Shown here: positions 3,127-23,034 of the stretch, in pieces
Layout: every line of letters begins with the position of its first letter
How positions within the stretch are numbered: the first letter of the stretch is position 1
Assembly (NCBI GenBank): GCA_017848855.1
Contig: JAFIHF010000022.1
Span: forward strand, 62,001-126,000
Length of the DNA: 64,000 bases
From: Rhodanobacter denitrificans
GTDB lineage: Bacteria > Pseudomonadota > Gammaproteobacteria > Xanthomonadales > Rhodanobacteraceae
Reading direction: 5' to 3'
Made by a program: the position numbers and the translations under genes
The notes under the pieces: generated by a model
Told to the model about the DNA's origin: nothing
What the model saw: only the letters and a program-made list of their open reading frames with translations
Databases searched by the model: none

Positions 3127-4737
3127 ATGTCCGCCCCCGCTGTCGTCCCCGTCCGCCGCGCCCTGCTCAGCGTTTCCGACAAGACCGGCCTGATCGAGCT
3201 GGGTCGCCGGCTCGCCGTGCGCGGCGTGGAACTGCTCTCCACCGGCGGCAGCGCCAAGGCGCTGCGCGAGGCCGGCATCGCGGTGAAGGACGTCAGCGAG
3301 CTCACCGGCTTTCCCGAGATCATGGACGGCCGCGTCAAGACCCTGCATCCGAAGGTGCACGGCGGTCTGCTCGGCCGGCGCGGCACCGACGACGCGGTGA
3401 TGGCCGAGCTCGGCATCCAGCCGATCGACCTGCTGGTGCTGAACCTCTACCCGTTCGAGGCCACGGTCGCAAAGCCGGATTGCACGCTGGAACAGGCGAT
3501 CGAGAACATCGACATCGGCGGCCCGGCGATGCTGCGCTCGGCGGCGAAGAACTGGAACGACGTGGGCGTGCTGACTTCGCCCGACCAGTACGAAAGCGCG
3601 CTGGCCGAGATCGAGCAGCACGGCGGCCTCTCGCGCGCCACGCGTTTCAAGCTTGCGGTCGAAGCATTCAACAACGTCTCGAACTACGACGGCGCGATCA
3701 GCGACTACTTGAGCGGCCTCCAGCTCGACGCGGCGCACGAGGCCATCGCCGGCCACGAAACCTTCCCCGCGCAGGCCAACGGCCGCTTCGTGAAGCTGAT
3801 GGATCTGCGCTACGGCGAGAACCCGCACCAGAGCGCCGCGTTCTACCGCGACCTGTATCCGGCGCCCGGCACGCTCGCCACCTTCAAGCAATTGCAGGGC
3901 AAGGAACTCTCGTTCAACAACATCGCCGACGCCGACGCCGCGTGGGAATGCGTGCGCAGCTTCGTCAAGCCGGCCTGCGTGATCGTGAAGCACGCCAACC
4001 CCTGCGGCGTGGCGGTGAGCCTGGACGGCATCGGCAAGGCCTACGACCTCGCCTACCAGACCGACCCCACTTCGGCCTTCGGCGGCATCATCGCGTTCAA
4101 CCGCGAAGTCGACGGCGCCACCGCGCAGGCGATCGTGTCGCGCCAGTTCGTCGAAGTGGTGCTGGCGCCCGCGTACAGCGACGAGGCACTGAAGGCGTTC
4201 GCGAAGAAGGGCAACGTGCGCGTGCTGGAAATCCCGGTGCCGCCCGGCACCGATCTCGTCGCCGCGCACCCGGGCAACAACGTCAAGCGCGTGGGCTCGG
4301 GCCTATTGATCCAGACCGCCGACACCGGCATGGTCAAGGCGGCCGATCTCAAGGTGGTGACCAAGCTGGCGCCCACGCCGGCGCAGATCGACGACCTGAT
4401 CTTCGCGTGGAAGGTGGCGAAGTTCGTGAAGTCCAACGCCATCGTCTACGCCAGGGATCGCCAGACCATCGGCATCGGCGCCGGCCAGATGAGCCGCGTC
4501 TACAGCGCGAAGATCGCCGGCATCAAGGCCGCCGACGAGAAGCTCGAAGTGCGCGGCTCGGTGATGGCCAGCGACGCGTTCTTCCCGTTCCGCGACGGCA
4601 TCGACGCGGCGGCGGCCGCCGGCATCAGCGCGGTGATCCAGCCCGGCGGCTCGATGCGCGACGCCGAGGTGATCGCCGCCGCCGACGAGCACGGCATGGC
4701 GATGGTGTTTACGGGGATGCGGCACTTCAGGCACTAA
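3127..4737 (+). CDS. purH: bifunctional AICAR formyltransferase / IMP cyclohydrolase
   Basis: A 536-residue cytoplasmic enzyme for the last two steps of IMP synthesis. The N-terminal IMP cyclohydrolase (MGS-like) domain spans about residues 1-190 ([38 protein letters not shown]). The rest is the AICAR transformylase with the catalytic motif KHANPCG (about residues 288-294), RYGENPHQ, and the C-terminal FFPFRDGID. Length matches the family (E. coli 529). It has its own TATAAT and follows fis in the same direction; the next gene is on the opposite strand. Confidence 0.97.
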
Positions 4738-6534: not shown

Positions 6535-9336
6535 ATGGCGAAGCTCATCCTGATCGACGGTTCCTCCTACCTGTACCGCGCCTTCCACGCGCTGCCGCCG
6601 CTGTCCAACGCGCAGGGCGAGCCCACCGGCGCGCTGTTCGGCGTGGTCAACATGCTGCGCGCCACGCTGAAGGCGAAGCCCGACTACCTCGCCTTCGTCA
6701 GCGACGCCTCCGGCCCCACCTTCCGCGACGCGATGTACGAGCACTACAAGGCGAACCGCCCGCCGATGCCGGACGACCTGCGCGCGCAGATCGAGCCGAT
6801 GCTGGCGATCGTGGCCGCGCTGGGCTTCCCGATCCTGCGCGTGCCGGGCGTGGAGGCCGACGACGTGATCGGCACGCTCGCCGTGCAGGCGCAGCACGCC
6901 GGCATCGAGGTGGAGATCTCCACCGGCGACAAGGACATGGCCCAGCTGGTCGGTCCCGGCATCACCCTGGTCAATACCATGACCAATACCACCATGGACC
7001 GCGCCGGGGTGATGGAAAAATTCGGCGTGCCGCCCGAGCGCATCGTCGACTACCTCACCCTGGTCGGCGACACGGTGGACAACGTGCCCGGCGTACCCAA
7101 GTGCGGCCCCAAGACCGCGGCGAAATGGCTGGCCGAATACGGCTCGCTGGACGGCGTGATCGCGAACGCGGCCCAGGTCGGCGGCAAGATCGGCGAAAGC
7201 CTGCGCGAAGCGCTGCCGCAGCTGCCGCTGTCGCGCGAACTGGTGACGATCAAGACCGACGTGGCGCTGGACCTCGGCCCCGCCGACCTCGCGCAACGCA
7301 CGCCCGATACCGAAACGCTGCGCGAGCTGTACACGCGCTACGAGTTCAAGGCGGCGCTGAAGGAACTCGAAGAGCCGGGACTCGGGACCCGGGACTCCGT
7401 GAAGCCGGGACTCGGGACTCGGGACTCGGGACTCGGGAAAAGCCAAGACCAAAGTCAAAGCCGAAGCCAAGGCGCGGAGTCCACGCCCGCCACGGACCGC
7501 TCTGCCGAGTCCCGAGTCTCGAGTCCCGAGTCCCGCTACGAGTTGGTCACCACGCAAGCGCAACTCGACGCCTGGCTGGAAAAACTCCGTACCGCCCCGC
7601 TGATCGCCTTCGATACCGAAACCACGGCGCTCGATCCGATGCAGGCCGATATCGTGGGCCTCAGCCTCGCAGTGGAACCGGGCCAGGCCTGCTACGTCCC
7701 GCTGGCGCACGACTACCCCGGCGCTCCCGCGCAGCTGTCGCGCGACGCGGTGCTCGCCGCGCTCAAGCCCATCTTCGAGGACGCGAGCCGGCCCAAGCTG
7801 GGCCAGCACGCGAAGTACGACATCAACATCCTGTCGCACTACGGCATCCGGGTGGCGGGCGTCGCCCACGACACCATGCTGGAATCCTACGTGTGGAACG
7901 CCACCGCCACGCGCCACGACATGGATTCGCTGGCGAAGCGCTACCTCGGCTACGACACCGTGAAGTACGAGGAGGTGGCCGGCAAGGGCGCGAAGCAGAT
8001 CCCGTTCTCGCAGGTGGACCTGGACACCGCCTGCCGCTACGCCGCCGAGGACGCCGACGTCACCCTGCGCCTGCACCACGCGCTGTGGCCGCAGCTGGAA
8101 AGCGTGCCCAGCCTGCGTTCGGTGTACGAGAACATCGAGATCCCGCTGGTGCCCGTGCTGGCTGGCATGGAGCAGCGCGGCGTGCTGATCGACGTGGACG
8201 AGCTGCGCCGGCAAAGCCAGCAGCTCGGCAAGCGCATGCTGGAACTGCAGCAGCAGGCGTACACGGAAGCCGGGCGCGAATTCAACCTCGACTCGCCCAA
8301 GCAGCTGCAGGCGATCCTGTTCGACGAACTGGGCCTGCCCGCGAAACTCAAGACGCCCACCGGCCAGCCCTCGACGAACGAGGAGGCGCTGGAAGCGATC
8401 GCCGACGCGCATGCGCTGCCGAAGCTGATCCTCGACTACCGCGGTCTCGCCAAGCTGCGCTCCACCTATACCGACAAGCTGGCCGGCACGGTGAACCCCC
8501 GCACCGGCCGCGTGCACACCAGCTACCACCAGGGCGCGGTGGCCACCGGGCGCATCTCCTCCACCGACCCGAACCTGCAGAACATCCCGGTACGCACCGA
8601 GGAAGGCCGGCGCATCCGCCAGGCCTTCATCGCGCCGCCGGGATGGAAGGTGATGGCAGCGGACTACTCGCAGATCGAGCTGCGCATCATGGCCCACCTC
8701 TCCGGCGACGAGGGCCTGCTGAAGGCCTTCCACGAAGGCGGCGACGTGCACCGCGCCACCGCCGCCGAAGTGTTCGGCCTCAAGCCCGAGGAAGTGAGCG
8801 CGAACCAGCGCCGCGCCGCCAAGGCGATCAACTTCGGCCTGATGTACGGCATGAGCGCGTTCGGCCTCGCCCGCCAGCTCGGCATCGACCGCGGCGAGGC
8901 CGGCGACTACATCGCGCGCTATTTCGCCCGCTACCCCGGCGTGCACGCCTTCATGGAAGCCACCCGCGAACGGGCGCACCGCGACGGCTACGTGGAAACG
9001 ATCTTCGGCCGCCGCCTGTACCTGGAGAACCTGCAGTCGCGCAACCAGGCCCATCGCGCCGGCGCCGAGCGCGCCGCGGTGAACGCGCCGATGCAGGGCA
9101 GCGCCGCCGACATCATCAAGCGCGCGATGATCGCCGTGGCCGCCTGGCTCAAGAGCCGCGACGACGACGCCCACATGCTGATGCAGGTACACGACGAACT
9201 GGTGTTCGAGGTGCGCGCCGACGCGGTGGACGCAGTGCGCGAAGGCGTGCGCGAACGCATGCAGGGCGCCGCGGAACTGGCCGTGCCGCTGATCGTCGAC
9301 GTGGGCGTGGGCGCGAACTGGGACGAGGCGCATTGA
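6535..9336 (+). CDS. polA: DNA polymerase I
   Basis: A 933-residue repair and Okazaki-processing polymerase. The N-terminal 5'-nuclease (about 1-280) has EADDVIGTLA and STGDKDMAQLV. The 3'-5' exonuclease keeps its catalytic motifs (AFDTETTAL, GQHAKYDINIL, YAAEDADVTL), so proofreading is probably intact. The polymerase shows motif A (DYSQIELRIMAHLS), the O-helix (RRAAKAINFGLMYG) and motif C (QVHDELVFE). The start ATG 6535 opens MAKLILIDGSS, the family N-terminus; a GTG at 6508 is in frame but less likely. Residues 281-334 are a palindromic heptamer insertion between the nuclease and exonuclease domains, separately listed. Confidence 0.97.
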   Translation: MAKLILIDGSSYLYRAFHALPPLSNAQGEPTGALFGVVNMLRATLKAKPDYLAFVSDASGPTFRDAMYEHYKANRPPMPDDLRAQIEPMLAIVAALGFPILRVPGVEADDVIGTLAVQAQHAGIEVEISTGDKDMAQLVGPGITLVNTMTNTTMDRAGVMEKFGVPPERIVDYLTLVGDTVDNVPGVPKCGPKTAAKWLAEYGSLDGVIANAAQVGGKIGESLREALPQLPLSRELVTIKTDVALDLGPADLAQRTPDTETLRELYTRYEFKAALKELEEPGLGTRDSVKPGLGTRDSGLGKSQDQSQSRSQGAESTPATDRSAESRVSSPESRYELVTTQAQLDAWLEKLRTAPLIAFDTETTALDPMQADIVGLSLAVEPGQACYVPLAHDYPGAPAQLSRDAVLAALKPIFEDASRPKLGQHAKYDINILSHYGIRVAGVAHDTMLESYVWNATATRHDMDSLAKRYLGYDTVKYEEVAGKGAKQIPFSQVDLDTACRYAAEDADVTLRLHHALWPQLESVPSLRSVYENIEIPLVPVLAGMEQRGVLIDVDELRRQSQQLGKRMLELQQQAYTEAGREFNLDSPKQLQAILFDELGLPAKLKTPTGQPSTNEEALEAIADAHALPKLILDYRGLAKLRSTYTDKLAGTVNPRTGRVHTSYHQGAVATGRISSTDPNLQNIPVRTEEGRRIRQAFIAPPGWKVMAADYSQIELRIMAHLSGDEGLLKAFHEGGDVHRATAAEVFGLKPEEVSANQRRAAKAINFGLMYGMSAFGLARQLGIDRGEAGDYIARYFARYPGVHAFMEATRERAHRDGYVETIFGRRLYLENLQSRNQAHRAGAERAAVNAPMQGSAADIIKRAMIAVAAWLKSRDDDAHMLMQVHDELVFEVRADAVDAVREGVRERMQGAAELAVPLIVDVGVGANWDEAH
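7375..7535 (+). repeat. in-frame heptamer (GGGACTC) palindromic element in polA
   Basis: A 161-bp insertion whose left arm is made of GGGACTC repeats and whose right arm is the reverse complement (CGAGTCC repeats), separated by a centre of about 65 nt. It encodes GLGTRDSVKPGLGTRDSGLG ... AESRVSSPESR in the polA frame, in the linker between the 5'-nuclease and 3'-5' exonuclease domains. Two further copies are in uvrD. It has no transposase and no stop codon. Confidence 0.9.
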
Positions 9337-10852: not shown

Positions 10853-13800
10853 ATGAGCACAACGAAGTACGTGGGTGGGTCGAGCATGTCCCACCAGACG
10901 CGTGACATCGAGGTCGCGCCCGTCACCCGCGCGGTGCGCGCAGCGCTGGCGATCTCGGTCGCGGCGCTGGCGCTGGGCGGCCCGGCAGTGGCCGGCACGG
11001 CGCCGAACAACGCTCCCGCCCAGGTGGCGACGCAATCGGGCGCGCTCACCGGGCTCGACGCCTACCCCGTCGACCTGACCCTGGTCCAGTCCGGCGGCAT
11101 CCCCAGCAGCGTGATCGCGAGCCCGATCACGACCCTCAATATGGTCCAGTCCGGCGACATCACCTACACCAACGCGGGCACGATTGCGGTGTCCACCACC
11201 GGTGCCTACAACGCCAACGCCATCTACGCCGAATCGACCGACGGCGGCAACGTCAGCGTCGACAACCAGGCCACCGGCGTGCTGACGGCGAACGCGGAGT
11301 ACGGCAACGCGATCGGCATCTTCGGCTACACCGTCGGCGGCAACGTCAGTGAACACAACGCCGGCGCGATCACGACGACCTCGACCAACGGCTTGGCGGA
11401 CGGCATCTTCGCTTCGGGCGGCAAAGTGGACGTCACCACCGACGCGGGCAGCAGCATCAGCGCGACCGGCTTCAACTGGGCGGCAGGCATCGAGGCGCAG
11501 GGCGACGACCTGACCACGGTGAACAACGCCGGCGACATCACGGCCACGGCGAACGTCAGCACCGACAGCAAGGCGTTCGGCATCTACACCACCGGCGGCG
11601 CGGACGGCATCAGCGTGGCCAACAGCGGCACCATCCACGCGAGCGGCGCCTACGCCACCGGCATCTACGCCTACGACGCGACCAGCGGCCACGTCACGAT
11701 CACCAACAGCGGCAACATGCAGATAGCGTCGCCGTACTTCGCCACCGGCATCCAGGTGGTCAGCGGCGGCGACGGCGCGGTGGTGACCGTGAACAACTCC
11801 GGCGACCTGTACGCGGGCGTGGGCGGCACCTATTTCAGCTCGGTCGGCATCCAGGCGGTGGCGACCGGCGCCGGCAGTTCGGTCAGCGTCGACAACAGCG
11901 GCACCGCCATTGCCTCGAACGCAGGCCAAAACGGCCGGTCGACCGGCATCCTGGCCTCGGCCACGGGCGACGCGAGCGTCGACAACAGCGGCAAGGTGAT
12001 CTCGAACCATGGCGACGGCATCGAGGCGCTGGCATTCACCGGCAATGCGAGCGTGACCAACAGCGGCTACGTGGCCGCAGCCGCCACGGCGATCACGGCG
12101 GCCTCGCAGGGGGGCACGGCTACGGTGGTCAACACCGGCACCGTGCGCGCCCTGGGCGCCCAGGTCACCGGCATCCGCGCCGGCGGCGGCTATGGCGCGA
12201 GCGTGGACAACAGCGGTTCGATCCAGGTCGCTCCGGCCAAGTACGGCATGGGCGTGTACGCGAGCGCGGGCACCGGCGACGCGGCGGTGACCAACTCGGG
12301 CTCGATGACGCTGCAGGGCATGCACATCTACGGCGCGATCGGCAAAGCCAGCGTGGGCAACGTGGCGATGGCCAATTCGGGCGCGGTGACGATGCAGGCC
12401 AAGTACGGCTACGGCGTGCTGGGCATCTCCAGCCAGGGCGACGTGGCGATCAGCAACGCGGCCACGGGCACGATCGACATCAAAGGCAAGTACAACAGCG
12501 ACAGCCAAATCTATCAGTCGGTCGCTGGCATCGGTGTATTCGGCAGCACGACGCAGGGCGACGTGACGATCGACAACGCCGGCAGCGTGTCGGTGGACGC
12601 CTCCGGCGGTGGCAAGAAGGCGGTCGGCGTGTTCGCCCGCTCCCGCGACGGCAGCGTGGCGGTGAACAACAGCGGCACCGTGTACGTAGCGGCGTACTAC
12701 GCCGCGCAGGCGGTGGTCGCGCAGGCGACGGGCGACGCGACGGTGGACAACAGCGGCGCGATCACCGTGGTGGGGGTCGGCGGCTACGGCCACGGCCACG
12801 CGACCGGCGTGCTGGCCACCGCGACCGGCACCGCCACGATCCACAACAGCGGCACGATCACCGCGACCGCGGACTATGGCATTGCCATCGGCATCAGCAC
12901 CACGCCCGACACGCTGACTGCGCAGGTGGACAACAGCGGGCAGATCAACACGTCCAGCTTCTACTACGGCATCGGCATCAAGGCCGGCGGCGGCACGGTC
13001 GGCGTGACCAACAGCGGTTCGATCGCCGTCGAGTCGAGAAGCGGCATCGGCGTCGAGGCCACGGCCGCGACCGGCAACGCCACGGTCGCCAACAGCGGCT
13101 CGATCCTCGCCAACGACGGCACCACGCACGTTTACGGCGACTATTACGGTGCCACCGCGGTTTCCGCCGCGGCAGCCTACGGCACCGCGCTGGTGAGCAA
13201 CAGCGGCAGCATCACCGCGACCGCGGCGACCGGCACGGCCATCGGCGTGCAGACCATGGCCAGCACCCTGGACGCGCAGGTGGCCAATGCCGCCGGCGGC
13301 ACGATCAGCGCCAGCGGCGTGCAGGCGATCGGCGTGCTCGGCGAAGGCACCACCCTGGCGGTGACCAACGCCGGCCAGATCGCCGCCGTCACCAGCGATT
13401 CCGCCGGCCAGGCGACCGGCGTGTGGGCGAAGTCCAGCGGCGACGCGACGATCGGCAACAGCGGTTCGATCGCCGCCACCGGCGTCGATGCCGCCACCGC
13501 GCTGGCCCTGGATGCCGGCGGCGTATCGACCCTGAACAACAGCGGCAGCATCGCCGCGACCGCGCCGTACGGCACGGCCATCGGCGTCCACAGCACGGCG
13601 GCCACGCAGGCGGCGCAGCTGACGAATGCCGCCGGCGGCACGATCGGCGCCAGCGGCGTGCAGGCGACCGGCCTGCTCGGCGAAGGCGCCGCCACCGTGA
13701 CGGTGGCCAACGCCGGCCAGATCGCCGCCACCGCCGTCGATGCCGCCACCGCGCTGGCCTTGAATACCGGCGGCGCATCGACCCTGAACAACGGCGGCAG

Positions 13801-15847
13801 CATCGCCGCGACCGCGCCGACCGGCACGGCCATCGGCGTCCACAGCATGGCGGGCGCGCAGGCAGTGCAGCTGGCGAATGCCGCCAACGGCACGATCGGC
13901 GCCAGCGGCGTGCAGGCGACCGGCGTGCTCGGCGAAGGCGCCACCCTGACGGTGGCCAACGCCGGCCACATCACCGCCACCAGCAGCGATGCCGCCGGCC
14001 AGGCAACCGGCCTGTGGGTGAAGTCCAGCGGCGACGCCGCGATCAACAACAGCGGCTCGATCACCGCCACCGGCGTCGATACCGCCACCGCAGTGGCCCT
14101 GAACGCCGGCGGCGTGTCGACGCTGAACAACAGCGGCGTGATCCGTTCGTATGCCAGCCCGGAAGGCAGCATCGCCGTGTCCGGCGGCGACGGGGTGGAA
14201 AACATCGTCAACAGCGGCAAGATCTACGGTGCGCTGGTGCTCGGCGGCGGTGCCGACAGCTTCACCAACGCCAGCCACGGCCTGTGGGACGTGCGCAGCC
14301 ACAGCACCGACTTCGGCGCCGGCAACGACGTCGTCAGCAACCAGGCCGGCGGCACCATCCGGCTCGCCGATTCGGCCATCCGCCTGGGCAGCGGCAACAA
14401 CGCGTTCACCAACGCCGGCACGATCAAGGTCGTGGGCAACAGCCTGATCGACATGGGCACCGGTCCGGGCGGCGCCACGCCGGTGCCGGCGATGAACACC
14501 GCGCAGGTGCCGGCGCTGAACGCCACGCCGATGATCAACAACGGCGTGATCGACTTCCTCGACGGCGCCACCAACGATGCCCTGACCATCCACGGCGACT
14601 TCGGCGGCAACGGCACCCTGAACATCGACCTGAACCTGCGCAACGGCACCAGCGACATGCTCCGCATCGACGGCAACGTCGTCGCCGGCACGGTGCAGCA
14701 CGTGAACATGCCGTTCACCGGCATCCCGACCTCGGGCGCCACGGTGCCGGCGCAGTTCGCCAGCGTGGCGGGCACCTCCACCGCCGACCAGTTCGTCGCC
14801 GGCCGGTTGACGGGCTACTCGCCCAACAACTTCGTGAACCTCGGCATCGGCATCACCAGCAAGATCGACCCCAGCAACGCCACCGCCGACGCGTTCTACG
14901 CACAGATCGCCGTCACCGGCCTGAGCGACGCCGGCACGCTGGCCGCGTCGGCCGGCCAGAGCGCGCAGAGCCTGATGGCCTCGCAGATCGGCACCTGGCG
15001 CCAGCGCATGGGCGTGGTCCCGGCCCAAGCCGGCCCGGGCGGCGTGAGCCCGTGGGTGCGTCGCTACTACGACAACCGCGACGTCAAGCTCGCGCACACG
15101 GCCAACTTCGGCAGCGGCGGCAACTTCGCCTACGAGCAGACCAACGCCGGCACCGAGCTGGGCCTGGACGTCGCGCCGATGGCCGGCATCAACCTGGGCA
15201 TGATGCTGGCCGACAACAAGGCCGAGCAGCGCCTGACCGGTGCCGGCGCCGGCAGCAGCCGCATGGACGGCCACACGGTCGGCCTGTACGGCACCTTCAC
15301 CTCGGCGAAGGGTTATTACGTCGACCTGTCGTATCGCACCATGGGCTTCAAGTCCAGGCTGCGTTCGCCGATGGCGAGCGAGCAGCTCCTGCTCGGCCGG
15401 GCCAACGCGCTCAACGTCGAGGCCGGCTACGACTGGACGTTCGGCAACGGCCTGGTGCTGGAACCGCAGCTGCAGTACACCCGCACCACGGTCGACGGCA
15501 TGGGCCCGCTGCAGGCCGTGGACAGCACCTTCCGCCTGCAGGGCTCGCGCTGGGAGACCTCGCGCATCGGCCTGGCCGCGCTGAAGCAGGTCAGCTCGGC
15601 GTACGGCTGGATCTGGACCCCGTACGGTGCGCTCAGCCTGGTGCACGTGGCCGGCAACCGCAGCACCTACGCGATCAACGACACCCTGTTCGGCAGCACC
15701 AGCAGCAACGGCGACAGCGCCATGGCGGAACTGGGCCTGGGCGTGCGTCGCAACAACCTGTCGGTGACCGCGGGCGTGAACTGGGTCAACGGTGGCGCCA
15801 CGCAGGGCCAGGTGGGCGGCCAGGTGGTGCTGCGCTACGGGTTCTGA
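10853..15847 (+). CDS. large type V autotransporter with repetitive beta-helix passenger
   Basis: A 1664-residue outer-membrane/surface protein. It has an extended N-terminal signal region ending near GGPAVAG (about residues 25-49); an in-frame ATG at 10886 would give a shorter version. The passenger (about 50-1390) is built of short repeats of the type VDNSG-S/T-I and VTNSGSI, expected to stack as a beta-helix. Residues about 1395-1664 form an autotransporter beta-barrel ending in QVVLRYGF with the terminal aromatic residue. Residues about 785-1095 contain near-identical long blocks (SGVQATGVLGEG, SGDAAINNSGS), evidence of recent internal duplication. Likely an adhesin, by family. It is monocistronic, followed by a GC-rich hairpin. 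Confidence 0.9.
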   Translation: MSTTKYVGGSSMSHQTRDIEVAPVTRAVRAALAISVAALALGGPAVAGTAPNNAPAQVATQSGALTGLDAYPVDLTLVQSGGIPSSVIASPITTLNMVQSGDITYTNAGTIAVSTTGAYNANAIYAESTDGGNVSVDNQATGVLTANAEYGNAIGIFGYTVGGNVSEHNAGAITTTSTNGLADGIFASGGKVDVTTDAGSSISATGFNWAAGIEAQGDDLTTVNNAGDITATANVSTDSKAFGIYTTGGADGISVANSGTIHASGAYATGIYAYDATSGHVTITNSGNMQIASPYFATGIQVVSGGDGAVVTVNNSGDLYAGVGGTYFSSVGIQAVATGAGSSVSVDNSGTAIASNAGQNGRSTGILASATGDASVDNSGKVISNHGDGIEALAFTGNASVTNSGYVAAAATAITAASQGGTATVVNTGTVRALGAQVTGIRAGGGYGASVDNSGSIQVAPAKYGMGVYASAGTGDAAVTNSGSMTLQGMHIYGAIGKASVGNVAMANSGAVTMQAKYGYGVLGISSQGDVAISNAATGTIDIKGKYNSDSQIYQSVAGIGVFGSTTQGDVTIDNAGSVSVDASGGGKKAVGVFARSRDGSVAVNNSGTVYVAAYYAAQAVVAQATGDATVDNSGAITVVGVGGYGHGHATGVLATATGTATIHNSGTITATADYGIAIGISTTPDTLTAQVDNSGQINTSSFYYGIGIKAGGGTVGVTNSGSIAVESRSGIGVEATAATGNATVANSGSILANDGTTHVYGDYYGATAVSAAAAYGTALVSNSGSITATAATGTAIGVQTMASTLDAQVANAAGGTISASGVQAIGVLGEGTTLAVTNAGQIAAVTSDSAGQATGVWAKSSGDATIGNSGSIAATGVDAATALALDAGGVSTLNNSGSIAATAPYGTAIGVHSTAATQAAQLTNAAGGTIGASGVQATGLLGEGAATVTVANAGQIAATAVDAATALALNTGGASTLNNGGSIAATAPTGTAIGVHSMAGAQAVQLANAANGTIGASGVQATGVLGEGATLTVANAGHITATSSDAAGQATGLWVKSSGDAAINNSGSITATGVDTATAVALNAGGVSTLNNSGVIRSYASPEGSIAVSGGDGVENIVNSGKIYGALVLGGGADSFTNASHGLWDVRSHSTDFGAGNDVVSNQAGGTIRLADSAIRLGSGNNAFTNAGTIKVVGNSLIDMGTGPGGATPVPAMNTAQVPALNATPMINNGVIDFLDGATNDALTIHGDFGGNGTLNIDLNLRNGTSDMLRIDGNVVAGTVQHVNMPFTGIPTSGATVPAQFASVAGTSTADQFVAGRLTGYSPNNFVNLGIGITSKIDPSNATADAFYAQIAVTGLSDAGTLAASAGQSAQSLMASQIGTWRQRMGVVPAQAGPGGVSPWVRRYYDNRDVKLAHTANFGSGGNFAYEQTNAGTELGLDVAPMAGINLGMMLADNKAEQRLTGAGAGSSRMDGHTVGLYGTFTSAKGYYVDLSYRTMGFKSRLRSPMASEQLLLGRANALNVEAGYDWTFGNGLVLEPQLQYTRTTVDGMGPLQAVDSTFRLQGSRWETSRIGLAALKQVSSAYGWIWTPYGALSLVHVAGNRSTYAINDTLFGSTSSNGDSAMAELGLGVRRNNLSVTAGVNWVNGGATQGQVGGQVVLRYGF

Positions 15848-20529: not shown

Positions 20530-23034
20530 ATGGATGTCTCGCACCTGATCGACTCGCTCAACGACGCGCAACGCGAAGCCGTCTGCGCCCCGCCCGGCCA
20601 CTACCTCGTCCTCGCCGGCGCCGGCTCCGGCAAGACCCGCGTGCTCACCCACCGCATCGGCTGGCTGATGCAGATGGAGCGCGTGCCGCCGTGGGCGATC
20701 CTCGCCGTCACCTTCACCAACAAGGCCGCCGGCGAGATGCGCGCGCGGCTGGAGTCGCTGATCCCCGGCGGCACGCAAGGCCTCACCGTGGGCACCTTCC
20801 ACGGCATCGCCCACCGCCTGCTGCGCCGGCACTGGCGCGAGGCCGGCCTGCCGGAAGGCTTCCAGATCCTCGACGCCGACGACCAGCAGCGGCTGGTGAA
20901 GCGCGTGATCGCGGGGCTGGGGCTGGACGAGGCGCGCTATCCGTTCCGCCAGGCCACCTGGACGATCAACGGCTGGAAGGACGAGGGCAAGCGCCCCGAC
21001 GCGATCGAACACCGCGACCATCCCGTCACCGCGACGCTGGTGCGCATCTACCGCGGCTATGAGGAAGCCTGCCAGCGCGCCGGCCTGGTCGACTTCGCCG
21101 AGCTGCTGCTGCGCGCGCACGAGCTGTGGCTGAAGAACCCGGCGGTGCTGGAGCATTACCAGAACCGCTGGCGGCACCTGCTGATCGACGAGTTCCAGGA
21201 CACCAATGCGTTGCAGTACGCGTGGATCAGAGTGCTGGCCGGGCCAGATGGCCGAAATTCATGGCCCCATGAAACCGGGACTCGGGACTCCGTGAAGCCG
21301 GGACTCGGGACTCGGGACTCGGGACTCGGGAAAAGCCAAAGCACGGAGTCCGCACTCGCCACAGACCGCTCTGCCGAGTCCCGAGTCCCGAGTCCCGAGT
21401 CCCGCCAAGCAAACCCCGCACAAGTCTTCGCGGTGGGCGACGACGACCAGAGCATCTACGGCTGGCGCGGCGCGCGGGTGGAGAACATGCAGCAGTTCCT
21501 CAAGGACTTCCCCGGCGCGCGCACGATCAAGCTGGAGCAGAACTACCGCTCCACCGCCACCATCCTGAAGGCCGCGAACCAGGTGATCGCGCGCAACGGC
21601 GGCCGCCTCGGCAAGGAACTGTGGACGGCCGGCGGCGAGGGCGAGCGCATCGCGCTGTACGCCGCCTACAACGAGCAGGACGAAGCGCGCTTCGTCATCG
21701 AGCGCATCCGCGAGTACATCGCCGAGCACGGCCACGCGCGCGACTGCGCGATCCTCTACCGCTCCAACGCGCAGTCGCGCAACTTCGAGGAACAGCTCAC
21801 CCAGCGCAAGCTGCCCTACCGCGTCTACGGCGGCCAGCGCTTCTTCGAGCGCGCCGAGATCAAGGACGCGCTGGCCTACCTGCGCCTCACCGCGAACCGC
21901 CACGACGACGCCTCGTTCGAGCGCGCCGTGAACACGCCCGCGCGCGGCATCGGCGAGCGCACGCTGGACGTGCTGCGCCGCCGCGCCCGCGGCGACCGCA
22001 GCTCGCTGTGGGAAGCCGCACTGGCCGAGCTCGCCGGCGGCGAACTGGCGGGCCGGGCGAAGAATGCGGTGAAGGGTTTCCTCGCGCTGATCGACGGGAT
22101 GGCGCACAGCTTTGCGGGACTCGGGACTCGGGATTCCGTGAAGCCGGGACTCGGGACTCGGGACTCGGGACTCGGGAAAGGCCAGAGCCAAAGCACGGAG
22201 TCCGCACCCGCTTCGGATCGCTCTACCGAGTCCCGAGTCCCGAGTCCCGAGTCCCGGTCTTTAGAACCCGAGTCCCGGCTTCCTCTCGCCGAACAGATCG
22301 ACCACGTCCTCACCCACACCGGCCTGCGCGACCACTACGAGAAGGATTCGCGCGGCAACGGCGAGGCGCGCATCGAGAACCTCGACGAGCTGGTCAACGT
22401 GGCCAGCCGCTTCGAGCGCACGCAGGAGGACATCGACGCCGGTCTCGACGAACTGTCCGCCTTCCTCTCGCACGCCGCGCTGGAAGCGGGCGAAAGCCAG
22501 GGCGAGGCCTGGGACGACTGCGTGCAGCTGATGACGCTGCACTCGGCCAAGGGGCTGGAGTTTCCGCTGGTATTCCTGGTCGGGCTGGAGGAAGGCCTGT
22601 TCCCCAGCCAGCGCAGCACCGAGGACGAAGGCCGGCTGGAAGAGGAACGCCGGCTCGCCTACGTGGGCATCACCCGCGCGCGCGAACGGCTCGTGATCAG
22701 CTACGCCGAGTCGCGCCGCATGCACGGCACCGAGATGCTGGCGCGCCCCTCGCGCTTCCTCGCCGAGATCCCCGCCGCGCTGGTCGACGAAGTGCGCCCG
22801 CGCGTGCAGGTGAGCCGTCCGCTCTACGGCGGCGCCGGCCGCCATGCCGATGGCGCCTCGCTGCAGGAAGACCTGCCGGTCAAACTCGGCCAGCGCGTCA
22901 GCCACCCCAGCTTCGGCGAAGGCGTGGTGGTCAGCGCCGAAGGCAGCGGCGCGCACACCCGGCTGCAGGTGAATTTCGAAGGTGCCGGCAGCAAGTGGCT
23001 GGTGGCGGCGTACGCCAACCTCACGCCGCTGTAA
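20530..23034 (+). CDS. uvrD: DNA helicase II (UvrD) with two in-frame repeat insertions
   Basis: An 834-residue superfamily-1A 3'-5' helicase for excision and mismatch repair. Motif I is GAGSGKTR, motif Ia FTNKAAGEM, motif II IDEFQDTN, motif III GDDDQSIYGWRGA, motif IV EQNYRS, motif V LHSAKGLEFPLVF, motif VI RRLAYVGITRA. The start ATG 20530 gives MDVSHLIDSLN, as in E. coli; an ATG at 20521 is in frame. The protein is about 110 residues longer than E. coli UvrD (720) because of two heptamer palindromes: residues about 249-292 between motifs II and III, and about 529-583 in the 2B region. All motifs are present. Confidence 0.95.
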   Translation: MDVSHLIDSLNDAQREAVCAPPGHYLVLAGAGSGKTRVLTHRIGWLMQMERVPPWAILAVTFTNKAAGEMRARLESLIPGGTQGLTVGTFHGIAHRLLRRHWREAGLPEGFQILDADDQQRLVKRVIAGLGLDEARYPFRQATWTINGWKDEGKRPDAIEHRDHPVTATLVRIYRGYEEACQRAGLVDFAELLLRAHELWLKNPAVLEHYQNRWRHLLIDEFQDTNALQYAWIRVLAGPDGRNSWPHETGTRDSVKPGLGTRDSGLGKSQSTESALATDRSAESRVPSPESRQANPAQVFAVGDDDQSIYGWRGARVENMQQFLKDFPGARTIKLEQNYRSTATILKAANQVIARNGGRLGKELWTAGGEGERIALYAAYNEQDEARFVIERIREYIAEHGHARDCAILYRSNAQSRNFEEQLTQRKLPYRVYGGQRFFERAEIKDALAYLRLTANRHDDASFERAVNTPARGIGERTLDVLRRRARGDRSSLWEAALAELAGGELAGRAKNAVKGFLALIDGMAHSFAGLGTRDSVKPGLGTRDSGLGKGQSQSTESAPASDRSTESRVPSPESRSLEPESRLPLAEQIDHVLTHTGLRDHYEKDSRGNGEARIENLDELVNVASRFERTQEDIDAGLDELSAFLSHAALEAGESQGEAWDDCVQLMTLHSAKGLEFPLVFLVGLEEGLFPSQRSTEDEGRLEEERRLAYVGITRARERLVISYAESRRMHGTEMLARPSRFLAEIPAALVDEVRPRVQVSRPLYGGAGRHADGASLQEDLPVKLGQRVSHPSFGEGVVVSAEGSGAHTRLQVNFEGAGSKWLVAAYANLTPL
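21275..21404 (+). repeat. in-frame heptamer palindromic element, uvrD copy 1
   Basis: A 130-bp element: GGGACTC repeats, a centre with AAAGCCAAAGCACGGAGTCC, then GAGTCCC repeats. It encodes GTRDSVKPGLGTRDSGLGKS ... AESRVPSPESR. It lies in the loop between helicase motifs II (DEFQDTN) and III (GDDDQS), where E. coli UvrD has only a few residues. Same orientation as the polA copy. Confidence 0.9.
22115..22278 (+). repeat. in-frame heptamer palindromic element, uvrD copy 2
   Basis: A 164-bp element of the same family, encoding GLGTRDSVKPGLGTRDSGLG ... TESRVPSPESR plus a short extra tail SLEPESR. It sits just before EQIDHVLTHTGLRDHY, in the 2B-domain part of UvrD. It has the same frame and orientation as the other two copies. 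Confidence 0.9.

Follow-up and report, generated by a model that had tools for sequence, protein, structure and literature searches.

Dimers of repetitive extragenic palindromic sequences and bacterial interspersed mosaic elements (REP/BIME) are convergent and are moved by RAYT transposases. Comparable small repeats are known from several bacterial groups. G-rich heptamer repeats of the types GGGAATC and GGGNATC in Xanthomonas and Nostoc prefer four units, form many convergent pairs, are scattered across the genome and are located mostly outside genes (Rehm et al. 2015, PMC4692102); 7-11 % of these repeats were placed in genes, by another method than the one used here (PMC4692102). Intragenic REPs of the GTAG/CGTC type are in frame, over half of them in dimers or groups, and the authors suggested flexible linkers or loops as their location (PMC3733652). 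UvrD helicase and DNA polymerase I were among the hosts (BMC Genomics 2013, PMC3733652), recB of two Xanthomonas species had unlike REPs at roughly one position, and in other repair genes the positions differed (PMC3733652). In Rickettsia, palindromic elements (Ogata et al. 2000) stand in frame within genes at solvent-exposed positions, and one site can hold different element groups in different species (PMC3767692). A common origin of the Rickettsia palindromic elements RPE-4, 6 and 7 was favoured, hot spots not being excluded (PMC3767692). Small repeats with open frames inside genes were also described for enterobacterial mobile sequences (PMC2759123) and a mollicute palindromic repeat (PMC2996958). 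Here we analysed 64,000 nucleotides of Rhodanobacter denitrificans (assembly GCA_017848855.1, contig JAFIHF010000022.1, positions 62,001 to 126,000), called the window, to which all positions without a contig number refer. It carries a palindromic element of GGGACTC heptamers within polA and two further copies in a helicase gene. The heptamer is a dispersed repeat, and permissive disordered linkers probably tolerate frame-keeping copies of unrelated repeat families.

Insertion sites in the window and in relatives

The gene of DNA polymerase I, polA, is an open reading frame on the forward strand (6535-9336; open from 6508, the conserved start taken at 6535) with the Pfam domains 5_3_exonuc_N, 5_3_exonuc, DNA_pol_A_exo1 and DNA_pol_A. 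The element of about 158 bp (7377-7535, forward strand) is in frame within this open frame and encodes residues about 280-333 of the interdomain linker, between the C-terminal domain of the 5'-3' exonuclease (Pfam match up to residue 258) and the 3'-5' exonuclease domain (from residue 334). An accessory short array on the forward strand (7377-7397; GGGACTC GGGACCC GGGACTC), then CGTGAAGCC, precedes the G-rich forward arm of four exact GGGACTC units (7407-7434), which is followed by GGGAAAAGCC. A core or loop of 72 bases (7435-7506) separates this arm from the inverted arm on the reverse strand (7507-7534) with four GAGTCCC units, one of them GAGTCTC. In a structure model from 20 sequences, the predicted local distance difference test score was below 50 for the linker residues 280-328, at a mean of 82.9 for the whole protein; the linker is thus predicted to be disordered. 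An earlier note, made from the letters of the window, had described a GGGACTC palindrome in frame in a domain linker of polA. The units, the core and the inverted units confirmed the palindrome; the flanking Pfam domains and the predicted disorder agreed with the location. With up to two mismatches, GGGACTCGGGACTC had 23 matches in the window, against a mean of 0.67 in shuffled sequences.

The other two copies are located in a gene for a UvrD/PcrA-type helicase (20530-23034, forward strand; Pfam UvrD-helicase, UvrD_C and PcrA_UvrD_tudor), one at site 1 between LIDEFQDTN and VFAVGDDDQ (21277-21403, forward strand), the other at site 2 before PLAEQIDHVL (22116-22255, forward strand). They aligned to the polA copy with 79 and 81 % identity, the core and the upstream array being common to all three. 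Compared by eye, the three copies translate alike in the gene frame, as (L)GTRDS... and ...ESRV(P/S)SPESR, as had been noted before. Nineteen of 61 genomes matched the helicase at the cut-off, and one locus per genome was compared. Counted by eye, site 1 was empty in 15 of the 19 loci, with just a few residues at the position of the insert. The four filled loci carried GGGACTC (window), GGGATTC (G014) or GGGAATC-like units (G023, G005; G, C and L numbers denote genomes, contigs and loci, G000 being the genome of the window). Site 2 presented by eye three heptamer repeats, ten repeats of the CCCTCTCCC/GGGAGAGGG type, one other G-rich repeat and five loci without a clear repeat.

The polA comparison comprised the best 30 loci from 61 genomes and 80 further loci, 110 in total and 94 after merging of identical C-terminal parts. 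The repeat classes in the 94 linkers were called with allowed mismatches, at which codon-shuffled linkers gave 73 CCCTCTCCC, 11 R1 and 5 R2 calls in 1880: 18 linkers were labelled as REP-like R1 (GTAGGAGCGCACCCTGTGCGCGA doublets), 11 as CCCTCTCCC type, six as REP-like R2 (GTGGGAGCGACTTCAGTCGCGA doublets), two as heptamer and 57 as none. The label none includes L201 in spite of a single weak CCCTCTCCC match; L161 fitted two classes and counts as R1. Fifty-six of the 94 linkers matched none of the four repeat classes; linkers labelled none include likely decayed remains as judged by eye, e.g., L180, L208 and L084. Relatives free of the repeat, which the earlier note had proposed to look for among polA orthologues, were thus found at both genes. 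The second heptamer case (G031) is from another genus of the same family and has a different core. On a quick LG+G4 tree from which the linker was excluded, 29 of its 91 forks being open, the polA of the window was nearest to L062 (94 % over 876 columns), the C-terminal part of which equals that of L131 from Rhodanobacter sp. C06. Starred branches alone, the star standing for one support measure, force changes of the linker class: at least nine for R1, at least four each for the CCCTCTCCC type and R2, and at least two for the heptamer. Sister pairs at starred forks differed in the class they carried (L152 R2 and L155 CCCTCTCCC; L074 R1 and L168 CCCTCTCCC; L149 R1 and L167 CCCTCTCCC).

Of the repeats found in the polA linker, R1 and the CCCTCTCCC palindrome, for which genome-wide counts were made, are dispersed and high in copy number. 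Of 41 genomes searched, 10 contained R1, with at most 157 matches, and 19 contained the palindrome; the genome of the window held 157 R1 matches and 88 CCCTCTCCC palindromes. In other species R1 often begins with GTAG. A RAYT-like gene for a Y1-type transposase was observed among GTGGGTCGGGATTCATCCCGA / GTCGGGCTTCAGCCCGAC repeats (L239; G000 C69, around 12298-12606), and an R1 doublet lies about 1.4 kb from it, at about 3192-3267 of the locus.

IcmF presented a similar picture in the 14 of 18 matching genomes that were compared. By eye, the linker before VDRTLLLLRQRYN contained at least four different kinds of repeats among the relatives and was short in others (14 loci). At a second site, also by eye, the genome of the window had a heptamer array, G006 a run resembling GGGAACG, and G007 and G010 an inverted repeat of another kind. 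The repeats of the IcmF linker (L240-L253) include kinds like GTCATCCCGGC..GCCGGGATCC and CTTCGACTC..GCTACGCTCAG, which appeared by eye to be unrelated and dispersed.

Anatomy of the repeat and its position relative to genes

The exact 14-mer of two GGGACTC units occurred 312 times in the genome of 3.49 Mb; the same letters reversed did not occur. A similarity search for copies scored 40 of 87 candidates. The census is incomplete: its 65 clusters come from the window plus 40 further stretches of the genome, and the known place C73:62961-63007 is not among them. These clusters contained 103 arms, 68 of them with exactly four units; arrays elsewhere in the genome reach 12 units. In 98 % of 102 arms the array was preceded by a C; it continues into a consensus GG.AAAGC, the last five positions of which have frequencies of 0.52-0.71. 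Thirty-two clusters were pairs, with the tail inside the pair, and 33 had arrays on a single strand. All 32 neighbouring arrays on opposite strands at a distance of 31-250 bp were convergent; at 251-500 bp two neighbours were convergent and two divergent. The cores were unlike between most pairs, with shared cores within two groups.

Position relative to genes was evaluated for 64 of the 65 clusters with a strict test, for which a single reading frame had to be open and coding-like to either side of the cluster. Eleven of 64 clusters were inside a gene, against 1685 of 3000 (56 %) random positions, drawn from the window only (binomial p 1.6e-10). Copies in purL and mpl fail this test, yet sit in named genes; their inclusion gives 13 of 65. 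The heptamer repeat is located mainly outside genes, and the host genes in which it survives are housekeeping genes of many kinds: besides polA and the helicase, NCBIfam names identified argE, metH, purL, valS, purM, icmF (two arms), mpl, sucB and nadE. Single arms within genes occur in both orientations. A preference for DNA repair genes was considered and rejected, as it was not visible among the hosts found in the genome of the window. The earlier statement that all copies lie inside genes holds for the three of the window and fails for the genome. The count of intragenic against intergenic copies had been named beforehand as a check that could refute the earlier proposal, and the predominance of intergenic clusters is largely the refuting outcome. 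The earlier note is supported in that the palindromic repeat is dispersed, contributes a peptide to proteins and is missing from some relatives.

An autonomous partner of the heptamer arms was not found among Y1-type transposases, the only mover family looked for. GGGACTC was absent from both Y1-transposase loci of the genome, one of these matches being short with a stop inside, and a RAYT as mover of the arrays was rejected for this reason.

At G000 C10:19000-26700 (L097), about 2.7 kb hold four heptamer pairs that are alike in their cores. There, an element stands just before the pseudopilin-like signal KQSGFTLLEM in two open frames, one of them GspG (NCBIfam), and may lengthen the leader peptide. 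The pattern of three GGGANTC units followed by GG had 208 matches in the genome of the window, but just 0-25 in each of 14 further congeneric genomes; a recent burst in this genome or a loss elsewhere may account for the excess. Among the other features of the window, the sole Rfam match was a molybdenum/tungsten cofactor riboswitch (RF01055, 53139-53275, reverse strand, 70.2 bits), and no Rfam family matched at the polA element. A large repetitive open frame (10853-15847) contains tandem repeats of 252 bases (13468-13996) and of 81 bases (12275-12461) and by eye looks like an autotransporter.

Explanations for the shared insertion sites

Several unrelated families occupy the same places, thus the cause lies most likely in the site and not in the repeat. 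The simplest such cause is a disordered linker that tolerates inserts, and we infer that this tolerance, rather than a benefit or a target on the DNA level, makes the hot spot. The basic unit would be the arm, usually four GGGACTC followed by GG.AAAGC, single or in a convergent pair around a variable core. Arms would spread over the genome, and selection would then purge most intragenic copies. Those surviving would keep the frame and sit in disordered linkers or loops, as in the polA linker and the two helicase sites. Permissive sites would accept many stop-free palindromic repeats, with the result that unrelated families are found in different species. The occupied sites also chart, in a natural way, at which places housekeeping enzymes can accommodate tens of additional residues, and they are a source of new peptide in conserved enzymes.

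Several observations weigh against a simple insertion into tolerant linkers. Part of the pattern of linker classes in polA is inheritance, with 25 class changes needed on the tree versus 34.7 for shuffled labels. All 18 R1 copies in polA are in one register, GAHPVR ... RAQGAL or decayed forms of it (by eye), and another forward frame of the R1 arm is open as well. Independent random insertions would not give a single register, which may instead stem from selection on the peptide or from a smaller number of insertions combined with ectopic conversion. In the gene sucB for an E2 component (L125; G000 C61:292300-298500), for which 12 of 16 matching genomes were compared, convergent heptamer arms stand in both linkers around a small middle domain. 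These arms bracket host coding sequence that is found at the same place in relatives, and linker 1 has 20 residues as in G011, thus no net change in length. Simple insertion does not predict arms that flank host sequence without a change in length. Finally, the reuse of few sites by four families could also reflect a benefit or a target on the DNA level.

For the spread of the arms, a replication error is an unlikely mechanism that is compatible with tolerant linkers. The array would stall synthesis, and the nascent strand would switch to a near or distant array, copy the array and its tail, and return. Such events would give convergent pairs and a length-neutral replacement. The convergent geometry within 250 bp with the tail inside the pair, the length-neutral linker 1 of sucB and the small gains in icmF are consistent with this course, and quadruplex formation in vitro was reported for related GGGAATC repeats (PMC4692102). 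However, the sucB linker lengths vary among relatives in any case, and neighbours at 251-500 bp are divergent as often as convergent (two each).

That the insert is useful is likewise unlikely. The hairpin in the polA mRNA, at the border of 5' nuclease and Klenow part, would pause translation or would let the two parts be made or cut apart, and different repeats would serve this one purpose since each is a hairpin. The fold of the polA element has -104.8 kcal/mol compared to a mean of -71.05 for shuffled sequences (z -7.74), near-perfect inverted repeats are present in each repeat class of the linker, the site is a domain border and one register is kept by the 18 R1 copies. In addition, the survey of 2013 lists REPs in DNA repair genes of several species, including UvrD and DNA polymerase I (PMC3733652). 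Yet the 56 of 94 polA linkers without a repeat class are presumably functional, and the hosts in the genome of the window are mostly not repair genes. The dispersed families are all palindromic, hence hairpins are expected under neutrality too.

Quite improbable is a transposon-like miniature element, moved as a whole by a transposase and with the arrays as terminal inverted repeats. The core and upstream array shared by the three window copies would fit, as would the invariably convergent opposite-strand neighbours within 250 bp and the four pairs on one contig that share another core. But most pairs have cores that are very unlike one another, clusters with a single array are frequent (33 of 65), the sucB arms bracket host sequence and the two Y1-transposase loci are without GGGACTC. 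A comparison of filled and empty helicase site 1 by eye revealed no clear target-site duplication.

The model of the earlier note, a heptamer specialised for gene entry by an array that is free of stops and reads alike in all frames, is very improbable. The property of the array is true, and the three window copies are all in frame in genes. However, half of all heptamers are free of stops in six frames, and among those with five G/C it is 2296 of 2688 (85 %); moreover, arrays are depleted in genes. The absence of stops in six frames holds for the bare array only: of the two complete polA linkers that contain such an element, that of the window is open in four of six frames and that of G031 in two. 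The arms of unrelated repeats in the same linker are open in five of six frames, and families whose arms lack the property use the same sites. In view of the heptamer count and the depletion in genes, frame neutrality as the cause was rejected, and the unrelated repeats at the same linker speak against it as well. Nor is the array neutral in unit number, since gaining or losing one unit would shift the frame. A phase switch, by which slippage of one unit (7 bp) in the polA or helicase arrays would toggle repair in few cells, agrees with the unit arithmetic and with arrays of up to 12 units elsewhere in the genome, but is equally far-fetched with coding arms that are short, mostly of four units, in the one genome of the species compared.

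Tolerance by permissive linkers allows a further-reaching picture, in our view an unlikely one. A few protein linkers and loops, including those of polA, the UvrD-type helicase and IcmF, would be standing landing pads on which unrelated palindromic repeats settle, displace one another and are lost again at a high rate with the protein kept intact; the polymerase I of sister species would differ notably by the selfish repeat carried, and the reported preference for repair enzymes would be a real repair effect.

Relation to known repeat systems

The repeats studied here resemble those of Rehm et al. as tandem GGGANTC heptamers with a preference for four units (68 of 103), convergent pairs (32 of 32) and an over-representation outside genes. 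They differ in the unit, which is GGGACTC here and GGGATTC or GGGAATC in relatives. The tail GG.AAAGC is a feature of the present repeats that was not met in the accessible part of that account, which in the same part does not treat heptamers as peptide-coding inserts. Literature searches, which covered titles and the openings of abstracts with most subscription journals outside their reach, found nothing that describes heptamer arrays in the role of coding inserts or compares repeats of polA linkers among relatives. To the extent of these searches, two points are new: heptamers as coding inserts, and fixed sites in polA, the helicase and IcmF at which unrelated families turn over.

With REP/BIME the heptamer repeats share the convergent dimers, and the R1 and R2 inserts of polA look REP-like. 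Unlike REPs, the heptamer arms are tandem arrays instead of a GTAG-tagged single hairpin, and they stand beside neither of the Y1-transposase matches. Compared to the intragenic GTAG/CGTC REPs, sequences and species are others, and here unrelated families recur at one site of one gene.

The Rickettsia palindromic elements are likewise palindromic and in frame in protein genes. The parallel drawn in the earlier note is fair, as a resemblance of kind only. In contrast to the common origin favoured for RPE-4, 6 and 7, the families here have no evident shared sequence, and relatives with an empty site exist. The choice between a hot spot and one old insertion was left open for Rickettsia. In the clade studied here it is measurable, and the hot spot is favoured because families of no evident likeness occupy identical places of a protein in close relatives, beside empty sites.

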